The position numbers and the translations under genes were made by a program. From a bacterium (GTDB lineage Bacteria; SZUA-79; Acidulodesulfobacterales; Acidulodesulfobacteraceae), in contig QIJE01000026.1 in the NCBI GenBank assembly GCA_003232385.1, positions 1 through 49,964 of the forward strand: a stretch of DNA of 49,964 bases. Direction: 5' to 3'. Below, piece by piece: positions 15,039 to 27,212 of this stretch (position 1 is its first letter; each line of letters begins with the position of its first letter). The notes below the pieces were generated by a model. That model saw only the letters and a list, made by a program, of their open reading frames with translations. It did no database searches and was not told the origin of the DNA.

Positions 15039-15347
15039 TTACGGCATATCTAATAATTCTTCGGCTTCTTCCTTGGTGAGAATTCCGACATAGGAGAGTT
15101 TTCCATCAATAATCGTGGACGGAACGCTTCTTATGTAAAGATCAATTGAGATACGCCTTCCCTCAGGATCCGCCACGTCCAACAATCTATAATTAAAATC
15201 TTTTCGCTCATCGTACAGCCTCTTCCACGCATTATCCGCCGGGACACACTCCGAGCACCATTTCGAAACAAGAAGTATAACATCATGCTTTTTCTCATTC
15301 ATATATGCTAATATACCCTCTTTAATCTTGGTAAATTTACTCGTCAA
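15039..15347 (-). CDS. Small thioredoxin-like protein with a CSEC motif
   Basis: A 102-residue thioredoxin-fold protein without signal peptide. The redox motif CSEC (C31 and C34) lies in LLVSKWCSECVPAD, where thioredoxins have WCGPC, and SVPSTII supplies the cis-proline that follows the active site. Secondary structure order (helix, strand VILLVSK, helix, strand YRLLDV, cis-Pro, strand GKLSYVGIL, helix) fits the fold. It lies 10 bases after an LbpA/GcvH-like lipoyl protein gene and is presumably co-expressed. A role in reducing or exchanging thiols with that lipoyl protein is an inference from position only. Confidence 0.75.
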   Translation of the reverse strand: MTSKFTKIKEGILAYMNEKKHDVILLVSKWCSECVPADNAWKRLYDERKDFNYRLLDVADPEGRRISIDLYIRSVPSTIIDGKLSYVGILTKEEAEELLDMP

Positions 15348-15357
15348 ATCCGGCTGA

Positions 15358-15807
15358 TTACTGGCTCGAGCATCTCATGCATTGGATCTGATCCTTAGTT
15401 ATTTTCTCTCTATATTTTTCAACCGCTTCTTTTCCGGTTAAAAGACCGCTTAATTCGTTTAAATCGGATGCCTTTACCTTACTAACCCATGCATCTTCAT
15501 AGGGAGATATATTCAGGAGCAAGGGGTCTTTTAACAGAGCCTCGTTAACCTCTATTATCTCGCCGGAAACCGGAGACGGAATCGGTCCTACCCATTTTCC
15601 ACTTTCTATAGTCGCCGTATTGCCCCTTTTTCGAACCATGCTTCCGACTTTTTTAAATGTTACGTGCAAAATCTTTCCGGCCTGCGTTTGAGCAACATCA
15701 GTCATGCCTAACATCACGATATTGCCGTCTAAAGGCTTTGCCCACACATCTTTTTCGATGTCGTAATATAAATTTTCCGGAAGCTCACAACCCTGTATCT
15801 CTGCCAT
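15358..15807 (-). CDS. Lipoyl-carrier protein of the GcvH/LbpA family
   Basis: A stand-alone lipoyl-domain protein (149 aa) that resembles glycine-cleavage H protein but belongs to the subgroup with ESGKWVGPIPSPVSGEI around the lipoylated lysine (K71). True GcvH usually has ESVKAASD there. The subgroup includes LbpA proteins that carry sulfur intermediates in heterodisulfide-reductase-like (sHdr) sulfur oxidation, and uncharacterised relatives in actinobacteria and deltaproteobacteria. The opening IQGCELPENLYYDIE and the GMTDVAQTQAGKI block fit. The C-terminus is unusual: after the normal KEAVEKYREK end it carries a redox-like CMRC (C143, C146). No gcvT or gcvP lies nearby. The thioredoxin-like gene follows by 10 bases. 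Confidence 0.82.
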   Translation of the reverse strand: MAEIQGCELPENLYYDIEKDVWAKPLDGNIVMLGMTDVAQTQAGKILHVTFKKVGSMVRKRGNTATIESGKWVGPIPSPVSGEIIEVNEALLKDPLLLNISPYEDAWVSKVKASDLNELSGLLTGKEAVEKYREKITKDQIQCMRCSSQ

Positions 15808-15978
15808 TTATTGTCCCTCTCGCCGCATAACCGCACGACTCTCATTGGTTCTGATTATAACGCCTTATCTTAATTCAACCGATACCTAATCTATTATCAG
15901 TAAAATTATACCACAGTTTCTACTTTTTTATTTTTTTGAATTCCGCCGCTATCTCTTCATGCCATATCTTTGTGATAT

Positions 15979-16007
15979 TTGTCATTGCAATAAAATAATT
16001 ATATGAT
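15979..16007 (+). promoter_or_regulatory. Putative promoter of the hemerythrin operon
   Basis: TTGTCA (15979-15984) and TATGAT (16002-16007) are separated by exactly 17 bases, 80 bases upstream of the hemerythrin-like gene. Confidence 0.45.
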
Positions 16008-16087: not shown

Positions 16088-16582
16088 ATGGATACGAATC
16101 TTGACCCGATTATGTCTTTAAGGAGTGAGCATGAAACAGTCAGAGGGGTCTTAAAGAATCTTGACGGATATTTAAAAAAGATAGGTTCAAGCTCATCGGA
16201 TAACCTTAGAAAAAATCTGATAAACCAGCTTGACGAAATAACCTCTTTTATCGATAAAGACTTGGAAACGCATTTTAAAAAGGAAGAAGAGGCTTTATTT
16301 CCGGTTCTCGGAAATTACGTAGGGATAGAAACCGGGCCTATACACGTTATGCTTATAGAGCATGAACAAAGCAGGGAACTTTCTACGGAGTTCAAGACAA
16401 AAATAAGCGATTATCAGACTAACGGAGACTATAATGCTCTTATCGGAGCAGGGAATTCCTTCTCTTTGCTTCTATCGGAACATATAGATAAAGAAGAAAA
16501 TATACTATTTAATATGGCGAGTATGCATCTGTCCGCAGACGAAAAAGACGATATTATGAAAAAGATGCGTACAATAAAGTAG
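16088..16582 (+). CDS. Hemerythrin-like (HHE domain) protein
   Basis: A cytoplasmic four-helix HHE-domain protein that probably binds a di-iron centre and reacts with oxygen or nitric oxide. The ligands are spaced as expected: HETVRGVL near residue 16, HFKKEEEALFP (HxxxE), a middle HEQSREL, and HIDKEENILF (HxxxE). There is no signal peptide or membrane segment. AAAAGGAG lies eight bases before the ATG. It is followed after 28 bases by a double-DUF2249 gene, a pairing often seen with nitrosative-stress functions. Oxygen or iron storage and sensing are alternatives. Confidence 0.85.
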   Translation: MDTNLDPIMSLRSEHETVRGVLKNLDGYLKKIGSSSSDNLRKNLINQLDEITSFIDKDLETHFKKEEEALFPVLGNYVGIETGPIHVMLIEHEQSRELSTEFKTKISDYQTNGDYNALIGAGNSFSLLLSEHIDKEENILFNMASMHLSADEKDDIMKKMRTIK

Positions 16583-16610: not shown

Positions 16611-17153
16611 ATGAAAAACATGGACAACTTAAAAAGGGTTAAACTTGACGTAAGAGATGACATTAAGAATGGCGCCGACCCATTTCAAAAGATTATGACG
16701 GCAGTTAATCAATTAAAGAATGACGAGGTTTTAGATTTGATAAATGATTTCGAACCGTTTCCCCTTTATTCCGTTTTGGAAAATAAAGGATTCGAACATA
16801 CTACGGAAAAAATACCGGAGGGATTCAGAATAATATTTTTCAGGGGAGATAAAACGAAAAAAGAATCCGTTAAGATTTCAGAAGAAGCAGATGAGAACGA
16901 ATTTGCCGACGAAGACTTGAAAAATTTGGCTCATAAAAAAGACATTACGGAATTGGATGCAAGGGGACTTGAACCGCCGCAGCCTCTTCTTAAAATTTTT
17001 GCAATTCTTGAAAACCTGAAAGACGATGATGCACTATACGTAACACACGAGAGAAAACCGATACATTTATACCCGAGACTAAAGGACGCCGGCTATAAAT
17101 TTTTGACAGAAGAAAAAGGGGACGACCTTTATATCATCAAAATATGGAAATAG
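16611..17153 (+). CDS. Protein with two DUF2249 (TusA-like fold) domains
   Basis: Residues about 5-80 (KLDVRDDIKNGADPFQKIM ... EGFRIIFFR) and about 108-180 (ITELDARGLEPPQPLLKIF ... DLYIIKIW) are two copies of the small DUF2249 domain, which has a SirA/TusA-like fold. The second copy has the typical LDARGLEPPQPL opening. No cysteine is present at the TusA active position, so direct persulfide carriage is unlikely. DUF2249 genes usually accompany hemerythrins, NO reductase-like or NnrS-like membrane proteins and DUF59 proteins, all of which are present in this neighbourhood. The exact function is not known. Confidence 0.8.
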   Translation: MKNMDNLKRVKLDVRDDIKNGADPFQKIMTAVNQLKNDEVLDLINDFEPFPLYSVLENKGFEHTTEKIPEGFRIIFFRGDKTKKESVKISEEADENEFADEDLKNLAHKKDITELDARGLEPPQPLLKIFAILENLKDDDALYVTHERKPIHLYPRLKDAGYKFLTEEKGDDLYIIKIWK

Positions 17154-17176: not shown

Positions 17177-18415
17177 TTACCACTCCATAGAAAATATATG
17201 AAGCAAAAGCAATAGGGAGGCAATGAGGAGAATAACGGAAGATATTTTAATCAAATAAAAAAGCCAAATAATTATACCCAATAAAAAAAGCCCGAATATC
17301 AAATATTCAAAATATTTTGCCTGTGTATTAGAAAAAAGTTTGCCGTAAGCCCCTTTCTTTGCTTTTTCAAATACCTTAAGGCTTATCAAAAAGGGAAATA
17401 TTTTATGCAAAAAACCTATAATAACCATACCTGCAAAGCCGAATAGCGCCGTAAATCCAAAATAATAATATATGCCGTAATTAATACTTGCCGTCTTTTC
17501 TGATATAATTATTAATAAAAATCCGATAATAGCTGAAATAATTAAAAATGTAGCGCCGCTAAACAGATAAAAGGTCGTGACGTCAAATTTTTTCTTAAGC
17601 CTTTTTAGCATTAAATTAAAGAATATGAAAGAGTACAGAATCGTTCCTATGCCCAAAAGCCAACCCCCTATATCATTTAAATAAGTATAAACTGCCGTTT
17701 CCGTTCCGAAAAACGACGAAGCCAATAAAAAGATTATACCGCCGTTGATAACCGCCAGATCTGTTTTCCAACTGAGATTGCTTGGGCTTTTAGTCATATA
17801 GAACATAGGAAGAAGCCTATATGAAATAGATATGAAAAGCATAACCACAAAACCGACAAACATAAGGTAAATATGGTCTTTTAACATTCCATAAATATCG
17901 AAACTCGTTTTAAAATAAAACGATAAAGCTAAATATAACCCTACGGACAGACCGATAAAAAGATAGGAATAAGCAAAGGCGATCCCTATAGCGGTATAAT
18001 CCCATTTTTTTACCTTTTTTAAACTTAATAACATATTGAGGTCATACGCCAAAACGGATATAAACAAAAGGATTCCGCCGGAAGCAATCAGAATGGGAAT
18101 AAAATAATACATTCCCACGATAAACAGCAATAAGGATATTACAAAAACATAATAAACCGGAAAAAAAAGCTTTTCATATGCTATTTTTACACCTAATGCC
18201 ACCGGTAAAAGCATATATGAAGCGCCTATGATCGCCATCATCAAAAACCCGAGGGTAAATATATGGGTTAAAGCAATAATATTCGTGTTCATAAAAAAAT
18301 ATACGTTAAAACTTTTTGAATCTAAAAACATTACTATAAAAAAAATAGGCAAAAATATAAGCGCCGTCTTGATGTGTCTTAGTGCTATGTTTATAGAGCT
18401 GTCCGTTGCATTCAT
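17177..18415 (-). CDS. Polytopic membrane protein, NnrS / heme-copper oxidase subunit I-like
   Basis: About 12 hydrophobic segments and about 412 aa if the ATG at 18415 is used (AGGGG ten bases upstream); longer starts would overlap the DUF59 gene. Three similar blocks are visible: ALTHIFTLGFLMMAIIGASY followed by MLLP, LKDHIYLMFVGFVVMLFISI followed by SYRLLP, and FGFTALFGFAGMVIIGFLHK followed by IFP. They resemble the histidine-bearing helices of NnrS-like and CcoN/NorB-like membrane proteins, and the histidines could hold heme. Genes for hemerythrin, DUF2249 and DUF59 around it favour a role in nitric-oxide handling. I cannot assign catalytic residues, so the family name is tentative. Confidence 0.6.
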   Translation of the reverse strand: MNATDSSINIALRHIKTALIFLPIFFIVMFLDSKSFNVYFFMNTNIIALTHIFTLGFLMMAIIGASYMLLPVALGVKIAYEKLFFPVYYVFVISLLLFIVGMYYFIPILIASGGILLFISVLAYDLNMLLSLKKVKKWDYTAIGIAFAYSYLFIGLSVGLYLALSFYFKTSFDIYGMLKDHIYLMFVGFVVMLFISISYRLLPMFYMTKSPSNLSWKTDLAVINGGIIFLLASSFFGTETAVYTYLNDIGGWLLGIGTILYSFIFFNLMLKRLKKKFDVTTFYLFSGATFLIISAIIGFLLIIISEKTASINYGIYYYFGFTALFGFAGMVIIGFLHKIFPFLISLKVFEKAKKGAYGKLFSNTQAKYFEYLIFGLFLLGIIIWLFYLIKISSVILLIASLLLLLHIFSMEW

Positions 18416-18474
18416 GTATTGATTACCCCTATTATTTTTAACTGCAAAGCCTCCGGTTGAAACGCGAGGCGAAG

Positions 18475-18783
18475 TTAATGTGATTTTAGTCTCTTTAATG
18501 CGTCTGTTTTTATCATAGAACGATTCCATGCAGGCTCAAAAACGATATTTACGGTTACACCTTTAACGCCGGAAATATTTTTTAACACCTCTTCCACTTC
18601 ATACTTTATGACATTTCCGATCGGACAAGCCTTTGCAGTTAAGGTCATATCCAAAACAATATTCCCATCTTCATCGGAATTTATCTTATATACGAGTCCT
18701 AAATCGACTATATCTACTCCAAGCTCCGGATCGATTACCCCTTTTAATTCTTTCAGTATATCGTTTTCGTTTATTGTCTTCAT
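18475..18783 (-). CDS. DUF59 (MIP18/SufT-type) protein
   Basis: A DUF59 domain protein of about 102 aa; members assist iron-sulfur cluster assembly or repair. The motif VIDPELGVDIVDLGLVYKI is diagnostic, followed by LDMTLTAKACPIGNVIK with the conserved cysteine, and VNIVFEPAWN. The start ATG at 18783 has GGAG six bases upstream and is preferred to one four codons earlier. It precedes the NnrS-like gene on the same strand with a 59-base gap. A role in maintaining Fe-S clusters under NO stress is inferred from the neighbours. Confidence 0.88.
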   Translation of the reverse strand: MKTINENDILKELKGVIDPELGVDIVDLGLVYKINSDEDGNIVLDMTLTAKACPIGNVIKYEVEEVLKNISGVKGVTVNIVFEPAWNRSMIKTDALKRLKSH

Positions 18784-18920
18784 GATAAACTCCATTATTA
18801 TATAAAATTAACTATTTAAAGTTCTTTATAGTATAAAAGTTTATCAGGTTTTTAACTAAATTGAATTGACTTAAATCAAAATATCTTTAAAAATTACATA
18901 TTATATTTATCGCACCTTTC

Positions 18921-26252: not shown

Positions 26253-26723
26253 ATGGCTGATCAAACTAAAATGGCTATTATTTCCATTCACGGAACGCTG
26301 GATATGGCTTATCCGCCACTTATTCTTGCTTCTACGGCTGCAACGATGGATATCGAAAGCACGATATTTTTTACTTTTTATGGTCTGTCAATCTTAAAAA
26401 AAGACGCCGGAGAAAAACTCAAAGTAGCTCCGATTGCTAATCCGGCCATGCCTATGCCTGTTCCTAATATTATCGGCACATTGCCCGGAATGACTTCAAT
26501 GGCTACATCCATGATGAAATCAATGATTAAGAAAAATGGGGTCGCAACGGTTCCCGAGCTTATTTCCTTGTGTCAAGAAACAGGGGTCAGGTTGATTGCA
26601 TGTCAAATGACAATGGACCTTTTTAACTTTAAAAAGGAAGATATGATTGACGGAGTGGAATATGCGGGGGCAGCATCATTTGTAGAATATGCCGCTAAAT
26701 CTCAAATTCATTTATCGTTTTAA
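26253..26723 (+). CDS. DsrE/DsrF-like family protein (DsrE2-type)
   Basis: A 156-aa protein of the DsrE/F superfamily, whose members carry sulfur as a cysteine persulfide in sulfur oxidation, tRNA thiolation or stress responses. The fold signature KMAIISIHGTLDMAYPPLIL at the N-terminus and VRLIACQMTMDLFNF near the C-terminus match the DsrE2/peroxiredoxin-like subgroup. C117 in ACQMTMD is the expected active cysteine; C107 (SLCQETG) precedes it. A long hydrophobic middle (residues 60-95, rich in Met and Pro) is also typical. A strong terminator follows, so it is monocistronic. Sulfur transfer is inferred from the family. Confidence 0.85.
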   Translation: MADQTKMAIISIHGTLDMAYPPLILASTAATMDIESTIFFTFYGLSILKKDAGEKLKVAPIANPAMPMPVPNIIGTLPGMTSMATSMMKSMIKKNGVATVPELISLCQETGVRLIACQMTMDLFNFKKEDMIDGVEYAGAASFVEYAAKSQIHLSF

Positions 26724-26778
26724 GCATAAATCCAAACTGAATAACGACGATAATTACAATAGCAAAAATTTTAGGGGG

Positions 26779-26810
26779 AGCCTCTGTTTAATCGCAGGGG
26801 CTTTTATTTT
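26779..26810 (+). terminator. Rho-independent terminator after the DsrE-like gene
   Basis: AGCCTCTG (26779-26786) pairs with CAGGGGCT (26795-26802) with one G-T pair and an 8-base loop, followed by TTTATTTTT. Confidence 0.85.
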
Positions 26811-26812
26811 TA

Positions 26813-26841
26813 TTGACACTTTTTCAAAAATTAAGTATAAT
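26813..26841 (+). promoter_or_regulatory. Consensus sigma-70 promoter of the ArsR-family gene
   Basis: A perfect TTGACA (26813-26818), a 17-base spacer and a perfect TATAAT (26836-26841). It begins directly after the preceding terminator and leads to the regulator gene starting at 26937. Confidence 0.85.
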
Positions 26842-26853
26842 AAAACCATTAAC

Positions 26854-26879
26854 ATATATGAATATTTATATTTTTATAT
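26854..26879 (+). promoter_or_regulatory. ArsR/SmtB-type operator (12-2-12) at the regulator's own promoter
   Basis: The left half ATATATGAATAT (26854-26865) and right half ATATTTTTATAT (26868-26879) form a 12-2-12 inverted repeat with 10 of 12 complementary positions. It lies just downstream of the -10, where binding would block transcription. The half-site agrees with that of the palindrome at the arsB promoter. Confidence 0.55.
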
Positions 26880-26936
26880 GGACTTTGTATGATAATTAAT
26901 GATAATTTTTGTTTTATTTTTGACGAAAGAGTAATT

Positions 26937-27212
26937 ATGAATAACAGAAACGAGGAATCCTATATTGCCGAAGCAGAACTTCTTAAAACACTGGGACACC
27001 CCATAAGGCTTAAAATAATAGAAGTGTTGATAGATAACAAATCCTGCGTAAAAAATATATGGGCGGCATTGGGACTTCCTCAGGCAACAGTTTCACAACA
27101 TCTTGTTTCTCTCAAAAACAAAGGGATAGTTCGCTCTAAACGGGATGGAGTAATGATGTGTTATGAACTTAGCGACAAACGGATCGAAAAAATATTTGAA
27201 TATTTAAAATAA
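26937..27212 (+). CDS. ArsR/SmtB-family transcriptional repressor
   Basis: A small winged-helix repressor (91 aa from the ATG at 26937; GAAAGAG lies five bases upstream). LLKTLGHPIRLKIIEVL is the family opening and LGLPQATVSQHLVSLKNKGIV is the recognition helix and wing. Two cysteines are visible: C37 (NKSCVKNIW) at the position of the alpha-3 metal site, where classical arsenic sensors have ELCVCDL, and C75 in the wing (GVMMCYELSD). The classical CVC pair is absent, so the inducer may be arsenite bound by an unusual cysteine set, another metal, or a sulfur species. The operator at 26854-26879 suggests autoregulation, and the arsB palindrome suggests a second target. Confidence 0.88.
   Translation: MNNRNEESYIAEAELLKTLGHPIRLKIIEVLIDNKSCVKNIWAALGLPQATVSQHLVSLKNKGIVRSKRDGVMMCYELSDKRIEKIFEYLK

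Follow-up and report, generated by a model that had tools for sequence, protein, structure and literature searches.

A CxxC-tailed LbpA-like lipoyl protein and its adjacent thioredoxin in Ca. Acidulodesulfobacterales, a candidate dithiol relay

Genes at the lbpA3-trx locus

The window, which is the whole analysed stretch of 49,964 nucleotides, is contig C19 of a genome (G000) of 1.54 Mb that is 95% complete. It carries a gene for a lipoyl protein (lbpA3), a gene for a small thioredoxin (trx), and a hemerythrin gene that diverges from lbpA3 (Table 1). The first-pass annotation had described a lipoyl protein with a CxxC tail beside a small dithiol protein, and both open reading frames are indeed present on the minus strand.

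Table 1. Features of the lbpA3-trx locus, with positions in the window.
Feature	Position	Strand	Basis
trx (87 aa from ATG; 102 aa from TTG at 15347)	15039-15302	-	Thioredoxin_3; 26/30 family genomes
CSEC active-site codons of trx	15246-15257	-	Sequence and alignment
lbpA3 (LbpA-like lipoyl protein, 149 aa)	15358-15807	-	GCV_H; 81-91% identity across the phylum
CMRC tail codons, C143-C146 of lbpA3	15370-15381	-	Invariant in 11/11 and 20/20 aligned rows
Lys71 of lbpA3, predicted lipoyl site in ESGKWVGP	15595-15597	-	Invariant in alignments
Cys7 of lbpA3, N-terminal LbpA cysteine	15787-15789	-	Invariant in 15/15 LbpA rows
HcpR/CRP-type palindrome between hemerythrin and lbpA3	15972-15985	.	One mismatch to GTGA-N6-TCAC
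Hemerythrin HHE protein, divergent from lbpA3, third part of the conserved unit	16088-16582	+	21/21 loci
DUF2249/TusA-like protein after hemerythrin, less constant	16611-17153	+	12/21 loci

LbpA3 shares with GcvH the fold family and the lipoyl motif: it matches the Pfam family GCV_H (PF01597, 124 bits), and its sequence places the predicted lipoyl lysine in a GcvH-type domain (ESGKWVGP), as is characteristic of LbpA. It passes the cut-off of NF002270, a broad NCBIfam model for the GcvH subfamily (119.6 bits, cut-off 117), but falls below the GcvH equivalog model (79.1 bits, cut-off 115.85). Passages of a previous study name two conserved cysteines, one N-terminal and one C-terminal, that set LbpA apart from GcvH (PMC6067878). 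LbpA3 contains three cysteines in all (C7, C143, and C146), the latter two in a tail that reads CMRCSSQ; C143, like C7, is invariant in the 15 aligned LbpA rows, and on sequence grounds C7 and C143 match the published LbpA cysteines absent from GcvH, while C146 is additional. With two or three cysteines in the LbpAs and an LbpA3 score under the equivalog cut-off, these proteins contrast with the separate GcvH, which is encoded in a gcv operon. In the window genome this operon, a gcvT-gcvH-gcvPA-gcvPB run, lies on contig C13, apart from the window, so that LbpA3 has neither the equivalog score nor the gcvT/gcvP company of GcvH. The identification of LbpA3 as a plain GcvH was rejected on these grounds, which agrees with the first-pass view of the protein as LbpA-like; the contrary case envisaged there, that this might be the only H protein of a gcvT/gcvP system, does not apply because the gcv set has its own GcvH. 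The AlphaFold model of LbpA3 reached a pLDDT of only 39.

The trx product matches Thioredoxin_3 (PF13192, 35 bits) and stays below all NCBIfam cut-offs tried. Its start is more probably the ATG at 15302 than the TTG at 15347, because relatives are alike only from about 15302 onward. It contains two cysteines in all, both in its CxxC; the CSEC motif reported earlier is correct for this protein but is the window's own variant, since most relatives have CEEC and some have CAEC. The best sequence match among solved structures is 1fo5, and the predicted structure (pLDDT 55, low confidence) finds thioredoxins as its best PDB matches, so that the CxxC, the conserved proline, which we take to be the cis-proline, and the fold of this low-confidence model all agree with the thioredoxin superfamily. 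In its match to 1fo5, its CxxC, and its conserved proline, trx resembles the archaeal-type thioredoxins MJ0307/MTH807 (PF13192), from which it differs by being tied to an LbpA gene and by its scores against NCBIfam.

The hemerythrin protein resembles RIC/YtfE in that its domain matches the C-terminal part of the RIC model, but it lacks the N-terminal part; the match to TIGR03652 covers the C-terminal domain only (53.6 bits, cut-off 204.7), and not the whole protein as in RIC/YtfE. Further out, the minus strand of the window (17177-18795) encodes a membrane protein that resembles COX1 weakly, below the model cut-off, and a DUF59-type protein, and these two genes stay with the hemerythrin and DUF2249 genes in 10 of 21 loci. 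Two loci (L057 and L067) have two hemerythrins each, one beside lbpA3-trx and the other in the DUF2249 run. On the plus strand (26253-27212) the window also carries a DsrE2-like gene with a gene for an ArsR-type regulator behind it. The first-pass annotation had mentioned this DsrE-like protein alongside the pair; it is encoded in the window (26253-26723, 205.8 bits, NCBIfam cut-off 210), but it lies 10 kb away, outside the conserved neighbourhood and with nothing linking it to the pair, and was rejected as a partner of lbpA3-trx.

Occurrence in the phylum and in other lineages

The phylum examined (the Ca. Acidulodesulfobacterales group) consists of one family with 30 genomes; the relatives are MAGs, one of which is Candidatus Acididesulfobacter diazotrophicus. 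LbpA3 was found in 25 of the 30 genomes, and in all 25 its gene is adjacent to trx on the same strand (one trx is cut by a contig end). In the 26th genome with trx (G019), lbpA3 is reduced to a tail remnant, its last residues standing directly after the end of a ribonucleotide reductase gene (L029, contig C55), which is perhaps a misassembly and otherwise decay. Neither gene is present in G016, G017, G018, and G022; these four genomes also have no close hemerythrin (three have a 52-56% relative and one has none), and they retain sHdrB1 (in G018 just a piece at a contig end). Single-cysteine LbpAs of the phylum have no thioredoxin neighbour where their flanks were read, which in G016, G017, G019, and G022 extended to at most 1.5 kb.

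A contig scan with two stringent peptides, QIQCMRC and [VI][MI]LGMTDV, which more distant CxxC-tailed LbpAs would escape, gave 21 longer loci that probably overlap with the G-labelled genomes and are thus not an independent set. Hemerythrin is present in all 21 loci and trx in 20/20 where the contig extends, while the outer neighbours of hemerythrin-lbpA3-trx vary between genera; hemerythrin, which the first-pass annotation did not mention, is therefore as constant beside lbpA3 as trx is. C7, C143, M144, R145, and C146 are invariant across the phylum. The search alignments comprised 11 of the 25 LbpA3 (A1), 12 of the 26 thioredoxins (A2), and the window with 19 of 21 (A6) or 17 of 20 loci (A7); a further one (A3) includes the window LbpA twice (window and L023). 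Median dN/dS, calculated from 11 genes each and with dS near saturation, is 0.04 for lbpA3, where 35 of 55 pairs gave a finite dS, and 0.06 for trx, where 28 of 55 did.

Outside the family, matches above 110 bits were found only in G102 and G243, from two overlapping domain-wide samples of 291 and 386 genomes. When 72,556 plasmid records were searched by tblastn, 154 had a match, and the best three of these are Acidithiobacillus ferrooxidans plasmids; among the 30 matches listed, all others are GcvH-like at lower identity or coverage. The A. ferrooxidans LbpA has the tail VQCMRCSE and 45% identity to LbpA3 over 148 aa, and the thioredoxin of the same plasmids has a WCPVC motif and 42% identity to trx over 66 aa; used as a query, this thioredoxin matched 3 of the 72,556 records, only those plasmids. 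The gene order there is globin, FAD/2Fe-2S reductase, thioredoxin, hemerythrin, LbpA, DUF2249, hemerythrin, and HdrB-like, with a Crp/Fnr regulator, hcp, and NnrS further along. The two hemerythrins in the plasmid comparison are hardly alike, and the HdrB-like protein is 58% identical to the sHdrB1 of the window genome and 48% identical to the second sHdrB1 of G002. A scan of viral contigs gave 11 pattern stretches and zero relatives.

In the phylum of G243, LbpA was detected at E 1e-30 or better in 10 of 40 genomes. In family f211, the LbpA tail reads CIHC and a small thioredoxin gene with a CSGC, CTGC, or CASC motif stands next to it in all six LbpA genomes, and the two operons read have the order TusA, DsrE, lipoate ligase, DsrE, LbpA, Trx, HdrC1, B1, A, hyp, C2/B2, EtfB, EtfA, with no hemerythrin neighbouring the pair. 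In the sister family f74, LbpA has a single C-terminal cysteine, no thioredoxin is present, and HdrC1 follows directly (4/4). The coupling of tail and thioredoxin thus recurs in two further lineages, and across the cases examined, in three lineages, the CxxC tail and the thioredoxin gene co-occur. The LbpA tree (24 rows) has two changes of tail type, and 33% of bootstrap trees have one change; the CxxC tails may be of single origin, in which case the recurrence would count as one event.

These data bear on one alternative, in which a GcvH paralogue and a thioredoxin, both of the usual kind, are adjacent without a shared task. The Pfam GCV_H and NF002270 matches are in line with it; the 25/25 adjacency while other neighbours shuffle, the recurrence of the pair in A. 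ferrooxidans and f211, the low equivalog score, and the separate gcvT/H/P set all speak against it, and such a coincidence is strongly disfavoured and very improbable. A second alternative concerns the tail. DsrC has a sulfur-carrying C-terminal arm, and the LbpA tail might likewise act as a sulfur carrier in the manner of SoxY and DsrC arms: C143 would hold a persulfide, to be released as sulfide or passed on by C146 or the thioredoxin, which would then be a persulfide reductase or a sulfur acceptor and not the reductant of the lipoyl arm. Part of the previous work likened the C-terminal cysteine of LbpA to the sulfur-binding cysteine of SoxY (PMC6067878), TusA and DsrE genes lie upstream of the f211 pair, and a DsrE-like gene follows trx in two genomes. 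However, single-cysteine LbpAs do without a thioredoxin and TusA/DsrE genes are inconstant beside the pair in the phylum, and we regard the sulfur-carrier role as quite unlikely. The two DsrE-like genes (123-130 aa) stand directly after trx and belong to genus g4: G025 (L031, 1879-2271) and G012 (L035, 1067-1438).

The shared promoter and the sulfur genes of the window genome

The region between hemerythrin and lbpA3 contains GTGA-N6-TCAC exactly in 11 of 25 cases, for which shuffles expect 0.005. These sites and the one-mismatch site of the window all belong to genera g1, g2, g3, and g6, and nothing closer to the palindrome than two mismatches is present in the 12 regions from g4 and g5; one g2 region was read incompletely, and the promoters of L042 and L046 were read to 249 bases. 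According to parts of previous studies, HcpR is an NO-related CRP/FNR-type regulator of Desulfovibrio with the consensus wTGTGAnnnnnnTCACAw (PMC1274295), and the HcpR1 consensus is TGTGA-N6-TCACA (PMC5701242). At the hemerythrin-lbpA3 promoter the left half begins with A or G in place of the outer T, and no FNR/DNR-type TTGAT box is present in these promoters. In whole-genome searches, GTGATNNNNATCACA occurs once each in G002 and G008, both times at the hemerythrin-lbpA3 promoter, and G029 has it there, upstream of nosZ, and within one gene; it is absent from the window genome, and its reversed control has zero occurrences in the four whole genomes. The nosZ gene is present in 4 of 30 family genomes (G000, G008, G011, and G029), and an HcpR-type site precedes it exactly in G011 and G029 and with one mismatch in G008, while none precedes nosZ of the window genome. 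The latter gene (contig C21, 16710-18575; L192) encodes a TAT-type nitrous-oxide reductase above its family cut-off.

Taken together, the unvarying hemerythrin, the gene content of the plasmids, and the HcpR-type site suggest that the module is used at low O2 or with NO. A third explanation takes this further and considers the locus a device against nitrosative or oxidative stress unrelated to sulfur oxidation, in which a chain of dihydrolipoyl dehydrogenase, lipoyl arm, tail, and thioredoxin would denitrosylate thiols or feed hemerythrin in Fe-S repair, in a manner comparable to the mycobacterial Lpd-DlaT-AhpD-AhpC chain. It agrees with the hemerythrin that always adjoins the pair and whose best named model, though under the cut-off, is RIC, with the globin, FAD reductase, hcp, NnrS, and Crp/Fnr genes of the A. 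ferrooxidans plasmids, and with the site common to the module promoter and nosZ; yet the f211 pair lies within an shdr operon without such defence genes, the A. ferrooxidans set contains an sHdrB1-like protein, and 12 of the 25 promoters have no site. A stress device separate from sulfur oxidation therefore seems possible but doubtful.

The first-pass annotation had proposed looking for shdr genes and lipoate ligases of the sLpl type, and both are present in the window genome. A full shdr set, HdrC1-B1-A-hyp-C2-B2, is located on contig C23, outside the window and on another contig than lbpA3; its genes were named from the protein sequences and the gene order of the sHdr set, and B1 and A match Hdr models. 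The genome encodes five GCV_H-like proteins and one weak match, including one on contig C16 beside a lipoate-ligase-like gene and two tandem LbpAs on contig C10, which end in IICKKR and GIKCE and have a single C-terminal cysteine each. The C10 pair is accompanied by an ArsR regulator, LipS1, an sLpl-type ligase, and LipS2, where LipS1 and LipS2 are named by their best models under the cut-offs (222.5 bits against 230 and 208.8 bits against 270). A dihydrolipoyl dehydrogenase exceeds its model cut-off. A second sHdrB1, 46-48% identical, is present in 13 of 30 family genomes; in G002 (L176, 5368-12208) it belongs to a C1-B1-A-C2-B2 set between an ArsR gene and two single-cysteine LbpAs, and the window genome keeps these ArsR and LbpA genes (L007, 12866-14341) without the set between them. 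Contig C1 has a run of HdrC-, HdrB-, and HdrA-like genes with small electron-transfer genes behind it (L052, 1326-8401), separate from the shdr set.

A possible relay between lipoyl arm, tail, and thioredoxin

A partnership between LbpA3 and the thioredoxin is supported by the sequence comparisons. Their steady association suggests that the tail and the thioredoxin react with each other; since the lipoyl arm and the tail are both dithiols and thioredoxins exchange disulfides, the simplest mechanism would be a relay of arm, tail, and thioredoxin that could run in either direction. In this relay, the lipoate carried by Lys71 would serve as the swinging dithiol, C146 added to the LbpA-shared C143 would create a redox-active CxxC on a short tail, and disulfide exchange would connect the tail both to the arm and to the WCxEC of the thioredoxin. 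Where dihydrolipoyl dehydrogenase, the usual route, fails, the thioredoxin would thereby reset the arm, either by reducing it or by clearing adducts formed with sulfur or nitrogen oxides. We infer that LbpA3 is lipoylated, that thiols are exchanged and which way the exchange runs, that the module serves sHdr, and that NO is the trigger. The hemerythrin on the shared divergent promoter and, in several genera, the HcpR/CRP-type candidate site suggest use at low O2 or with NO/N2O.

In the mycobacterial Lpd-DlaT-AhpD-AhpC peroxidase chain, a lipoyl protein also passes electrons to a CxxC protein, but the protein families differ, and here the extra CxxC is on the lipoyl protein itself. Passages of one article describe reactive nitrogen species that hit dihydrolipoyl arms of mammalian dehydrogenases, partly reversibly with DTT, and name thioredoxin as a remover of S-nitrosothiols (PMC9974485). 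In view of this attack on lipoyl arms together with the hemerythrin, plasmid, and HcpR context, a specialised LbpA branch that serves sHdr or a close process, with a dedicated thioredoxin resetting the lipoyl arm by a dithiol relay, is ranked first among the explanations, at a probability of roughly one half. Several observations speak against this explanation. In the phylum the module lies outside the shdr locus, and sHdrB1 is retained by the four genomes that lack the module, which argues against an exclusive service to sHdr. The HcpR-type site is missing from 12 of 25 promoters, nosZ is restricted to 4 of 30 genomes and has no site in the window genome, and the f211 pair has no hemerythrin alongside. 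A dihydrolipoyl dehydrogenase is present, so that a bypass is not forced.

The relay proposed in the first-pass annotation is thus partly supported, with the pair and the CMRC tail conserved throughout the LbpA3 genomes; the regulatory and plasmid context, which that annotation did not include, points to nitrogen oxides. In a stronger version, the private thioredoxin and the CxxC tail together would take the place of dihydrolipoyl dehydrogenase or bypass it and give an NO-tolerant sHdr that couples sulfur oxidation to nitrogen oxides in acidophiles, with hemerythrin guarding Fe-S clusters; this version appears unlikely. The 2018 paper on LbpA itself proposed, in its Discussion, that LbpA is reset by dihydrolipoyl dehydrogenase (PMC6067878).

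LbpA3 resembles LbpA1 and LbpA2 of the sHdr pathway, as described in sections of PMC6067878 and PMC10332631, in being GcvH-like, in its lipoyl lysine and two LbpA cysteines, and in a genome with shdr and LipS1/sLpl/LipS2 genes, but it differs in its second tail cysteine, its own thioredoxin and hemerythrin, and a locus away from shdr in the phylum. A literature search, with most subscription papers outside its scope, found no title or abstract describing an LbpA-thioredoxin pair. The word thioredoxin is absent from PMC6067878 and PMC10332631 and occurs in PMC10451225 in the reference list only, while the thioredoxin passage of PMC11582611 concerns a periplasmic protein. The partnership has therefore apparently not been described before.

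According to part of the study of Tan et al. (2019), gcvH, hdrB2, hdrC2, and sirA were among the top-expressed genes, and gcvH was filed under glyoxylate metabolism (PMC6776010). That gcvH may or may not be lbpA3, and 'gcvH' transcripts in acid mine drainage bacteria are worth re-reading. Tied to an added tail cysteine, the conserved private thioredoxin is a concrete redox-partner candidate for LbpA that can be tested, and the module may link sulfur oxidation with defence against nitrogen oxides in these bacteria.
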